A DNA stretch of 59,750 bases from IMG/VR virus record IMGVR_UViG_3300033233_000043, positions 1-59,750 of that record. The stretch is one strand, 5' to 3'. The notes beneath the pieces were generated by a model, which saw nothing but the letters and a program-made list of their open reading frames with translations, made no database searches and was not told where the DNA came from. How positions within the stretch are numbered: position 1 is the stretch's first letter; the number at the start of each line of letters is the position of its first letter. This DNA comes from a virus. Shown in pieces: positions 48,827-59,750 of this stretch. Both the position numbers and the translations under genes were made by a program.

Positions 48827-48910
48827 ATGTGTAAATTTTGTCATTACACAAATCTTCAACCACTATGGGCTGAAGATAATTTGAAAAAAAATAATAAAAT
48901 ATTAAACTAA
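48827..48910 (+). pseudogene. C-terminal remnant of an HNH endonuclease
   Basis: Plus-strand codons read CHYTNLQPLWAEDNLKKNNK followed by ILN and a TAA, matching the end of the intact HNH protein at 7960-8553 (CHYKNLQPLWAEDNLKKSNK, then IL). Nucleotides are also nearly identical over AATCTTCAACCACTATGGGC and beyond. Only about 25 codons remain and the N-terminal HNH half is gone. It sits in the gap between two leftward genes, on the opposite strand, and its TAA overlaps the glycosyltransferase stop (CTAA). It is a decayed insertion. Confidence 0.85.
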
Positions 48911-58100: not shown

Positions 58101-59750
58101 GAGTGTTAGTTGGTGTTGGCGTGTTAGTTGGTGTTTGGGTTGGTGTTGGCGTGTTAGTCGGAGTGTTAGTTGGGGTTTGGGTTGGTGTTGGCGTGTTAGT
58201 TGGAGTGTTAGTTGGGGTTGTGGTTGGTGTTGGCGTGTTAGTAGGCGTTGGAGTATTAGTTGATGTTTGAGTTGGAGTGTTAGTTGGCGTTTGAGTTGGT
58301 GTTGGAGTTTGGGTTGGTGTGTTAGTTGGCGTTTGGGTTGGAGTTGGTGTTGGAGTTGGTGTTGGTAAACAAAAAGTTAAACAATCAATTATACCAACAT
58401 ATTCTCCCTCACCAGTGAAATTTTGTACACAATTACCCTCGACACAATCATAAGTGTTACATACACTGTCACACTCTTCAAATGTAGAGAAATATCCTGA
58501 ACCATCACCTGGGTCAAAACAATAAATACCATTACAGTCCCAAGACGGAATATGCGTTGATGTAGGAGTTGGAGTTTGAGTTGAAGTTTGAGTTGGAGTT
58601 GGAGTTTGGGTTGGAGTTTTAGTTGGTGTTGGAGTTTGGGTTGGAGTTCTAGTTGGAGTTTTAGTCGGTGTATTTGTTGGTGTTTTAGTCGGAGTTTGGG
58701 TTGGGGTTACTGTATTTGTTGGCGTTACTGTATTTGTTGGCGTTACTGTATTTGTTGGTGTTACTGTATTTGTTGTCGTAGGAGTATTTGTTGGTGTTAC
58801 AGTATTTGTTGGTGTGTTAGTTGGGGTTTGGGTTGGAGTTTCAGTTGGAGTATTAGTTGGAGTTTGGGTTGGAGTTACAGTATTTGTTGGTGTGTTAGTT
58901 GGGGTATTTGTTGGAGTTACAGTAGATGTTGGAGTGTTAGTTGGAGTGTTAGTTGGAGTGTTTGTTGGAGTATTAGTTGGAGTTACAGTAGATGTTGGAG
59001 TGTTAGTTGGAGTGTTAGTTGGAGTATTAGTTGGGGTCGTGGTTGGTGATAATCCTGGTGTTGGTGTGTTTGTTGGAGTTTGGGTTGGGGTTTGGGTTGG
59101 AGTTTCAGTTGGAGTTTCAGTTGGAGTATTAGTCGGAGTTTTAGTTGGGGTTTGGGTTGGTGTATTAGTTGGGGTTTGGGTTGGAGTTACAGTAGATGTT
59201 GGGGTGTTAGTTGGTGTTTGAGTTGGTGTTAACGTTTGAGTTGGGGTGTTAGTTGGGGTTGATGTAGGTGTTGGGGTGTTAGTTTGGGTTGGGGTTGGTG
59301 ATAATCCTGGTGTCGGTGTGTTTGTTGGGGTATTTGTTGGTGTATTTGTTGGAGTTTTAGTTGGAGTTTCAGTTGGTGTGTTTGTTGGGGTATTTGTTGG
59401 CGTATTTGTTGGAGTTTGGGTTGGGGTATTTGTTGGAGTTTTAGTTGGAGTTTGGGTGTTAGTTGGAGTGTTAGTTGGCGTTTTAGTTGGCGTATTTGTT
59501 GGGGTTTTAGTTGGCGTATTTGTTGGGGTTTTAGTTGGCGTATTTGTTGGGGTTTTAGTTGGCGTATTTGTTGGGGTTTGGGTGTTAGTTGGAGTGTTAG
59601 TTGGCGTATTTGTTGGGGTTTGGGTGTTAGTTGGAGTGTTAGTTGGAGTGTTAGTTGGCGTTTTAGTTGGCGTATTTGTTGGGGTTTTAGTTGGCGTATT
59701 TGTTGGGGTTTTAGTTGGCGTATTTGTTGGGGTTTTAGTTGGCGTATTTG
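55123..59750 (-). CDS. Giant Thr-Pro-Thr-X repeat protein, tail appendage (5' end missing)
   Basis: An unbroken minus-strand frame from the right edge to a TAA at 55123, 1542 codons with start outside the window. From N- to C-terminus: repeat block (59750 to about 58560), a Cys-rich domain with eight Cys (58557-58367), a second repeat block (58366 to about 56345), a 120-residue beta domain (with AFNAFSVPDKFQILWNG and DTGFRGDS), a TPTPT linker (to 55860), a propeller-like domain with tandem (I/V)xxxDxxxx(I/V)Y strands, and a TPT tail. I checked all codons from 56341 to 59340 for in-frame stops and found none. The architecture is that of a long, flexible virion adhesin. An apparent internal start at 56019 (GTG) is not real. 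Codon choice is uniform. Confidence 0.75.
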   Translation of the reverse strand, partial: NTPTKTPTNTPTKTPTNTPTKTPTNTPTKTPTNTPTNTPTNTQTPTNTPTNTPTNTQTPTNTPTKTPTNTPTKTPTNTPTKTPTNTPTKTPTNTPTNTQTPTKTPTNTPTQTPTNTPTNTPTNTPTETPTKTPTNTPTNTPTNTPTPGLSPTPTQTNTPTPTSTPTNTPTQTLTPTQTPTNTPTSTVTPTQTPTNTPTQTPTKTPTNTPTETPTETPTQTPTQTPTNTPTPGLSPTTTPTNTPTNTPTNTPTSTVTPTNTPTNTPTNTPTNTPTSTVTPTNTPTNTPTNTVTPTQTPTNTPTETPTQTPTNTPTNTVTPTNTPTTTNTVTPTNTVTPTNTVTPTNTVTPTQTPTKTPTNTPTKTPTRTPTQTPTPTKTPTQTPTPTQTSTQTPTPTSTHIPSWDCNGIYCFDPGDGSGYFSTFEECDSVCNTYDCVEGNCVQNFTGEGEYVGIIDCLTFCLPTPTPTPTPTQTPTNTPTQTPTPTQTPTNTPTQTSTNTPTPTNTPTPTTTPTNTPTNTPTPTQTPTNTPTNTPTPTQTPTNTPTPTNTPTPTETPTNTPTNTPTPTQTPTNTPTNTPTPTETPTNTPTPTETPTNTPTNTPTPTNTPTPTETPTNTPTNTPTQTNTPTPTETPTNTPTNTPTQTNTPTPTETPTNTPTNTPTQTNTPTPTETPTNTPTETPTNTPTPTETPTNTPTETPTQTPTNTPTQTNTPTPTETPTNTPTQTNTPTPTETPTNTPTETPTNTPTPTNTPTNTVTPTNTLTPTNTLTPTNTPTPTNTPTNTPTQTPTNTPTNTPTNTPTSTVTPTNTPTQTPTNTPTSTVTPTNTPTQTPTNTPTNTPTNTPTQTPTNTPTSTVTPTNTPTQTPTNTPTNTPTNTPTQTPTNTPTNTPTNTQTPTNTPTQTNTPTPTITIGLTTTPTNTITPTNTITPTNTPTPTQTPTNTPTNTPTQTPTNTPTNTPTQTPTNTPTNTVTPTNTPTNTPTQTPTNTPTNTVTPTQTPTNTPTNTVTPTQTPTNTPTQTPTNTPTNTITPTNTPTNTPTETPTNTPTPTNTSTPTNTPTQTPTNTPTNTVTPTNTPTETPTNTPTETPTNTPTNTPTETPTNTPTNTPTNTPTQTNTPTSTVTPTPTPTSPPELPIYTGETVCGLPYTIATGVTGCWQITVQLGSYTGVVAWAFNAFSVPDKFQILWNGSTVPEVDTGFRGDSLFNAQLNALGYPSVVGTGFVTGFWTKPTASPAFITVVVTAPIAPTKWWFKIGCPTVTPTPTPTPTKTPTQTPTNTPTSTNTPTPTPLPIIPTCSVLINDGPDVSAYFPSSNTNVFLFNSSVTSPDIAHTTTKLWLYSSGFIFEYDITLSPWSKTFNRTITYPSGVSLGNGLCAIDNTHLISTNTTTSPHQIIVLNITTSTAVSTVIGTLLPGREVSGDIILTTTNKILVTNTDDDGVFLSQYSYPSGTFEVEVDIASTISFPYGLFIDSGNIYVCNNYGDIYNVDVNFPYTQTLFNYSGLIIGGASQVPSCNNTNLNLPPTPTPTNTSTPTPTA
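56344..58365 (-). repeat. 12-base minisatellite encoding (Thr-Pro-Thr-X)n, block 1
   Basis: About 170 four-codon units in one phase. X is mostly Asn, also Pro, Gln, Glu, Ser, Val or Ile. One interruption (TIGLTT at about 57000). Codons in T and P positions vary (ACT/ACA, CCA), so it is not a perfect repeat. Confidence 0.9.
58560..59750 (-). repeat. 12-base minisatellite encoding (Thr-Pro-Thr-X)n, block 2
   Basis: About 100 units to the edge. The last 250 bases show a 24-base higher-order unit, NTPTKTPT, repeated almost without change, which implies recent expansion. A spacer SPG-type interruption occurs twice (near 59041 and 59300). Confidence 0.9.

Follow-up and report, generated by a model that had tools for sequence, protein, structure and literature searches.

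A candidate phage-encoded O-glycosylation system with a GT60 enzyme, Thr/Pro-rich proteins, and an exchangeable gene cassette

The 59,750-base virus record IMGVR_UViG_3300033233_000043, classed as linear and analyzed here over its full length (the window), encodes a GT60-family glycosyltransferase between a giant Thr/Pro-rich (T/P) protein and a cassette of putative glycan-modifying genes that is exchanged as a unit among near-identical phages. We consider it probable that these genes belong to a cytoplasmic system with which the phage O-glycosylates its T/P-rich proteins by priming, extension, and capping, and which would yield an exchangeable glycan. An initial annotation of this DNA had already proposed that the phage glycosylates its own T/P-rich proteins; its observations were confirmed, and its interpretation was partly supported.

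A GT60 enzyme with a GT-A fold

The putative priming polypeptide Thr glycosyltransferase, a 415-aa protein encoded at 53787..55034 on the minus strand, matched PF11397 at 237.7 bits (E = 3.5e-70; cut-off, 21) and PHROG 24687, annotated as 'glycosyltransferase', at 558 bits. The initial annotation had called this 53.8–55.0 kb protein GT60-like and had named a missing PF11397 match as grounds for dropping the call, and the search upheld it. PF11397 was found in none of 14 control genomes, and 350 GT60 relatives were matched in IMG/VR. The residues Asp92, Ser93, and His94 (DSH, a DxH motif) were conserved without exception across 29 of 29 relatives. Replacement of DxD by DxH is a feature of GT27 and GT60, and the latter is classed with GT27 as polypeptide-modifying (PMC7185993). 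GT60 forms N-acetylglucosamine (GlcNAc)-alpha-Thr on Trypanosoma cruzi mucins (PMC9472816).

In its AF2 model (pLDDT 68.8), the GT60 protein has a GT-A type fold, which aligned with GT-A enzymes at VIA-align Z scores of 11–12 and root mean square deviations of about 3–5 Å. Peptide GalNAc-transferases (GT27) were among many tied structural matches, and the acceptor is not readable from the fold alone. Past the Pfam match, residues 325–414 (gene at 55034-53787 of the window) were mostly well-predicted strands in the same model; this conserved C-terminal beta domain is possibly acceptor-binding. Searches by sequence found no PDB relative (best profile-search E, 0.11) and nothing in NCBIfam. A scan of genome contigs returned a single GT60 relative (69% identity), on a 230 kb contig (L285) of a Saprospiraceae metagenome-assembled genome, where a SPTPTTSVSPSN repeat frame lies 0.3 kb from GT60 on the opposite strand. 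L285 is perhaps a phage contig hinting at the host.

T/P-rich genes at the position preceding GT60

The giant (Thr-Pro-Thr-X)n, or TPTX, protein is encoded at 55123..59750 on the minus strand and is the proposed acceptor. Its frame ends 88 bases upstream of GT60, and its 5' end is cut by the window edge; the frame is complete in the related locus L003 (237-5585) and in the related record G002. The 1541 codons with the open 5' end include 607 Thr, 306 Pro, and 175 Asn. The 190 TPTX units are built of 44 different 12-mers, and therefore of more than one slipping DNA repeat, and all four Thr codons are used (ACA 214, ACC 86, ACG 48, ACT 259), so that an amino-acid pattern rather than one DNA repeat has been kept. 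Another proposed acceptor, a conserved protein with a T/P tail, is encoded at 48021..48749 on the minus strand, with the tract at about 48078-48323. Both the giant protein adjoining the operon and this second Thr/Pro-linker protein nearby had been described in the initial annotation, correctly in each case.

To compare gene positions among relatives, we took the 80 closest of the 350 IMG/VR relatives as GT60 loci, dereplicated them to 52 at 95% GT60 DNA identity, and scored T/P tracts as 30-aa windows with 55% Thr plus Pro. This threshold had been loosened after an earlier pass (40 aa, 60%), in which a T/P frame was found in 75 of the 80 loci. A T/P tract was present at position −1 to GT60 in 42 of 52 loci versus 61 of 589 genes at other positions (odds ratio 36, p = 5e-28 with no correction for relatedness), and positions +4 to +6 supplied 23 of these 61. 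The question raised by the initial annotation, whether GT60-like and TPTX genes occur together in related genomes, is answered affirmatively by this profile.

Broader co-occurrence was assessed in records anchored on other genes. Among 39 DNA-polymerase-anchored records (those of at least 40 kb out of 80 loci fetched), 28 carried both TPTX and GT60, one GT60 only, two TPTX only, and eight neither (Fisher p = 6e-6, relatedness uncorrected). This association is confounded by the adjacency of the genes and by the fragmentary state of many records. Both were present in all 13 polymerase-anchored records of at least 120 kb, and TPTX and GT60 are therefore not independent there. Among the matches listed, GT60 was present in 20 of 45 TPTX-anchored records of at least 55 kb, and a reversed-pattern control gave GT60 in 2 of 50 records searched, or 2 of the 16 of at least 55 kb (p = 0.03, relatedness again uncorrected). 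No T/P frame was called in two of eight inspected TPTX stretches without GT60, so the TPTX pattern also matches other sequence. The position profile is the stronger evidence.

The profile also bears on the explanation that T/P tracts are plain stiff linkers, spread for mechanical reasons, and that GT60 acts on another phage or host protein. Such tracts are common, being found without GT60 (25 of 45 TPTX-anchored records among the matches listed) and away from position −1 (61 of 589 genes), as this explanation would have it. It accounts poorly for the enrichment at position −1 and for Thr of mucins being a known GT60 acceptor (PMC9472816). In addition, 36 neighbor proteins in six T/P-rich records without GT60, picked for their T/P content, included members of Pfam families GT2, GT11, GT25, and FkbM; other primers or sugar enzymes may therefore serve such tracts. 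We regard plain linkers as quite improbable.

A constant frame around an exchangeable cassette

GT60 is the first of six leftward ORFs (open reading frames; 55034-53787, 53785-52787, 52780-52175, 52174-51224, 51199-50585, and 50583-48907) separated by gaps of 1, 6, 0, 24, and 1 bases, in agreement with the six-gene operon with spacings of 0–24 bases first described. The last of them (48907..50583, minus strand) encodes an HtrL_YibB-domain protein, which matched PF09612 over residues 3–255 (E = 1.6e-20) and had no PDB relative found by sequence. Its second half appears GT-A-like, and the GT2 label given to that half rests on motif reading; no Pfam match was found there. Of the HtrL-plus-GT2 protein originally proposed, the HtrL part is borne out.

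Enclosed by GT60 and HtrL, four minus-strand genes form a 3.2 kb exchangeable cassette (50587..53786). Two of them encode methyltransferases, as initially annotated: an FtsJ-like enzyme at 52175..52780 (PF01728, E = 2.9e-6), with a weak rhamnosyl O-methyltransferase match, and an FkbM enzyme at 50585..51199 (PF05050, E = 2e-17). The others, GTa (52787..53785) and GTb (51224..52174), had been described as paralogous transferase-like proteins. Their paralogy was borne out (blastp, 24.8% over 266 aa, E = 6e-14), and neither had a Pfam match over the cut-off that would bear out the transferase assignment. The AF2 model (pLDDT 61) gave no Foldseek match at E 0.001 and suggests, weakly, a GT-B-like fold for the pair; most glycosyltransferase rows for the model are what we take to be GT-B enzymes, and several structure rows are G-protein-coupled receptor entries, which presumably carry fused glycogen synthase.

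By tblastn of the window genes on the 80 GT60 loci, 76 loci have the T/P linker gene and 71 have HtrL, making HtrL a constant partner of GT60 in most loci, whereas each of the four cassette genes was found in only 6 to 11. The nature of this variation is seen in close relatives. L003 encodes a GT60 protein 100% identical to that of the window, and DNA similarity between the two ends at 53787, the GT60 stop, and resumes by the HtrL start at 50586, at 97.8%. The same edges were found in L004 and in G002, which is 98.7% identical to the window over 37.1–43.6 kb. Instead of the window cassette, of which blastn found nothing in L003 or L004 and a single 27-base stretch in G002, these three carry an unrelated cassette of 3.77 kb (3765 bases in L003; 100% identical in L004, 99.4% in G002). 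Among near-identical phages, then, the cassette is replaced in one piece, and the limits of the replaced block coincide with gene borders; this exchange was absent from the initial annotation.

Cassettes were also compared in 50 of the 52 dereplicated loci; in 44 of these the stretch taken ran from GT60 to HtrL, and in the 6 in which HtrL was not found it ran to the linker gene. The cassettes contained 176 called ORFs, which fall into 66 families including 26 singletons; a few of the ORFs are short, lie on the opposite strand, and may not be genes. Among 86 locus pairs with 85–96% identical GT60 genes, 60 shared no cassette family. Pfam searches with 62 family representatives gave 31 families, and the 25 listed, mainly of glycosyl- and methyltransferases, were headed by GT25 (5 members), Methyltransf_24 and FkbM (4 each), and GT10 and GT2 (3 each) and also included GT34, GT11, GT7, carbamoyltransferase, acetyltransferases, aminotransferase, and nucleotidyltransferase. 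In a simple test with Kyte–Doolittle windows of at least 1.8, none of the 176 ORFs had more than one strongly hydrophobic window.

A different explanation is that the cluster alters the O antigen or capsule polysaccharide of the host surface during infection and so wards off other phages, with the T/P genes as mere neighbors in a host-interaction island. Iyer et al. (2021) proposed such a role for clusters of glycosyltransferases in cyanophages and further jumbo phages and also argue from polymorphism between related viruses (PMC7824862), and the recognized cassette families include GT25, GT11, and others used in lipopolysaccharide or capsule synthesis. The hydrophobicity test, however, revealed no flippase or polymerase, and the constant gene, GT60, belongs to a polypeptide-modifying family. 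Moreover, the T/P tracts lie at position −1 rather than anywhere nearby, and Xanthomonas and Stenotrophomonas phages carry the same GT60–HtrL pair. We consider this explanation unlikely.

Glycosylation of phage DNA bases to block restriction, with the T/P tracts as unmodified linkers, would be a further use of such transferases. PF00303, which we take to include base-modifying relatives, was found in 7 of 18 large GT60-bearing records, thymidylate synthase and hydroxymethylase not being told apart by this match, and glycosylated DNA bases are known for phages in general (PMC12619734). PF00303 was not found in the other 11 records, though some of these are fragmentary and other routes are available. 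The grouping of GT60 with GT27 is a polypeptide-modifying one (PMC7185993), and an exchanged cassette with methyl, acetyl, and carbamoyl caps would suit an exposed glycan better. We regard DNA modification as very improbable, and glycosylation of T/P-rich phage proteins remains our preferred reading.

Proposed mechanism

In the mechanism that we propose, GT60 would prime Thr residues in T/P tracts of virion proteins, probably with alpha-GlcNAc from host UDP-GlcNAc. The HtrL-type protein and the cassette transferases would extend this sugar, and methyl-, carbamoyl-, or acetyltransferases would cap it; extension and capping would take place in the cytoplasm, before assembly. We infer the acceptors, the sugar, and the order of these steps, and also place the giant protein presumptively on the virion, where its glycan might serve, for example, in shielding from recognition. 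No multi-span membrane protein was found in the cassettes, which argues against a lipid-linked or surface polysaccharide route. Because GT60 is constant and the genes following it change as one block, the glycans on a common kind of scaffold would differ between related phages, and the result would be an exchangeable virion glycan with serotype-like variation of the virion surface.

Several findings weigh against this proposal. Position −1 was without a T/P tract in 10 of 52 GT60 loci, and no T/P tract was found anywhere upstream in 5 of 50; conversely, PF11397 was not found in 25 of 45 TPTX-anchored records among the matches listed. HtrL was not found in 9 of 80 loci, two of which end before its place. 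Several cassette proteins, including 3 of 5 in L003, are without a Pfam match over the cut-off indicating sugar or methyl transfer; in the L003 cassette, one of five proteins, a methyltransferase (protein 4), scored over the Pfam cut-off. Tail sheaths free of a T/P insert occur in six GT60-bearing records (L008, L010, L012, L013, L014, and L017).

Prolyl hydroxylation, which would accompany GT60 in a Skp1-like pathway, was rejected as part of the system. The initial annotation had placed a prolyl-hydroxylase-type 2-oxoglutarate oxygenase at 43.0–43.6 kb and a proline hydroxylation step in the pathway. The gene gave a weak PHROG 61 match (E = 0.013) and matched nothing in Pfam even with E values up to 1 allowed, and its relatives were present in only 2 of 80 GT60 loci and 1 of 53 loci reaching the DNA polymerase. 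The oxygenase family PF13640 was found in 1 of 18 large GT60-bearing records (G002), in a different gene at 6.4–7.1 kb. This gene adjoins a 940-aa ORF that starts GT2-like by eye (L571, 3622-7120), the pair lying upstream of the giant T/P gene on the other strand.

Tail sheath and other genes of the window

The window derives from a contractile-tailed T4-like phage. The tail sheath matched PF04984/PF17482 and gp25 was matched, both over the cut-off, and gp19 and gp6 gave weak matches. The phage is far from cultured phages, because its DNA polymerase is 22–28% identical to cultured-phage relatives (12 of 17 among the matches listed).

The tail sheath (29304..32639, minus strand) contains a T/P insert at about 31659-31808 and is a possible acceptor on the virion. 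T/P tracts thus occur in three window proteins, namely the giant protein, the 48.0–48.7 kb protein, and the sheath, the last of which was absent from the initial annotation; a single 20-aa T/P stretch in the 11.7–18.5 kb gene is trivial. A T/P window was found in 67 of 80 relatives of the window sheath, 3 of the 13 others being short pieces. L447 is a sheath free of the insert, and none of its 77 newly found relatives had a T/P window; six of them lie in the GT60-bearing records named above. The insert is an allele that varies independently of GT60, and it was rejected as a GT60 marker. A T/P frame of extreme length, 5472 codons and nearly all tract, was observed at 1839-18257 of L563, in a 202 kb viral record (G052) in which PF11397 was not found.

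At 45516-47975 on the minus strand, an 819-aa protein with Asn-rich NNxIGxxFxNN repeats resembles a beta-solenoid adhesin by eye; it had no Pfam or PHROG match, and its relatives were found in 9 of 80 GT60 loci. Elsewhere, the N-terminal third of a 525-aa ORF (37022-38599, plus strand) resembles iron/manganese superoxide dismutase, and two ORFs between phage core genes (7960-8553 and 26842-27750, minus strand) are homing-endonuclease-like, in each case by eye only. A 1691-aa ORF (18799-23874, minus strand) had a weak OmpA-type match (E = 0.014) below the cut-off.

Comparison with known systems

We are evenly divided on the broader reading, namely a mucin-like phage system comprising a eukaryote-type Thr-priming GT60, dedicated (TPTX)n scaffolds on the virion, and a gene-precise exchangeable cassette behind GT60 that switches the glycan and, in effect, creates virion serotypes, in uncultured aquatic phages as well as gammaproteobacterial phages. 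If true, a constant priming enzyme, a recognizable acceptor motif, and an exchangeable extension cassette would allow virion glycosylation to be predicted from the sequences of many environmental phages (GT60 had 350 matched relatives in IMG/VR), and mucin-type O-glycosylation and serotype-like variation would enter phage biology. No open-licence PMC paper on mucin-like or hypervariable phage glycosylation was found, which does not imply absence from print.

Among 50,697 phage records, GT60 was found in three, the cultured phages XacN1, CM1, and RAS14, which were also the only ones with an HtrL match covering at least 80%; six further records matched HtrL in part. The GT60–HtrL pair thereby extends to Xanthomonas and Stenotrophomonas phages. 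In XacN1 the two genes are separated by a carbamoyltransferase and two ORFs, and in RAS14 by two ORFs. TPTX matches with at most one mismatch numbered 54 in XacN1 and 13 in RAS14, and the reversed pattern gave 0. The jumbo phage XacN1 resembles the window in having the same GT60 (48% identity) and HtrL (41%) in one cluster, and it resembles the proposal in that glycoproteins were detected: proteomics identified at least two, and the phage transferases ORF328 and ORF334 were proposed as their makers (PMC5852040). ORF334 is the GT60 gene. The XacN1 glycoproteins are the nearest thing to an experimental test, and the passages cited do not tell which proteins are glycosylated; unlike our analysis, they mention neither an acceptor protein nor T/P tracts, the GT60 family, or a cassette (PMC5852040). 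The same paper stated in 2018 that glycosylation of phage structural proteins had rarely been identified (PMC5852040).

Moraphages, aquatic T4-related large phages most of which have Bacteroidota as predicted hosts, encode four putative glycosyltransferases in their core genome; unlike for the window, a T/P link or cassette is not mentioned in the passages cited (PMC12619734). In mycobacteriophages (Freeman et al., 2023), phage genes were proposed or shown to glycosylate the phage's own capsid and tail proteins, with glycans at the C-termini of capsid and tail tube subunits (PMC12619734), whereas T/P tracts, a GT60 primer, and a variable cassette are proposed for the window.

Closest in enzyme family is TcOGNT1 of Trypanosoma cruzi, a GT60 enzyme that shares PF11397 and the DxH motif with the window protein and, as in our proposal, acts on Thr-rich mucin-like acceptors whose first sugar is extended by other enzymes. 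Unlike TcOGNT1, the window GT60 is viral, would act in the cytoplasm without a Golgi, and is coupled to an exchangeable cassette. Beside TcOGNT1, we take Skp1 GnT1 of Dictyostelium to be a close known system. In organization, the nearest parallel is with bacterial O-antigen and capsule loci, which have constant flanks around an exchanged sugar-gene block and feature a multi-span membrane protein (flippase, polymerase, or converter). The window-type loci share the constant flanks and the exchanged block, and no such membrane protein was found among the 176 cassette ORFs.
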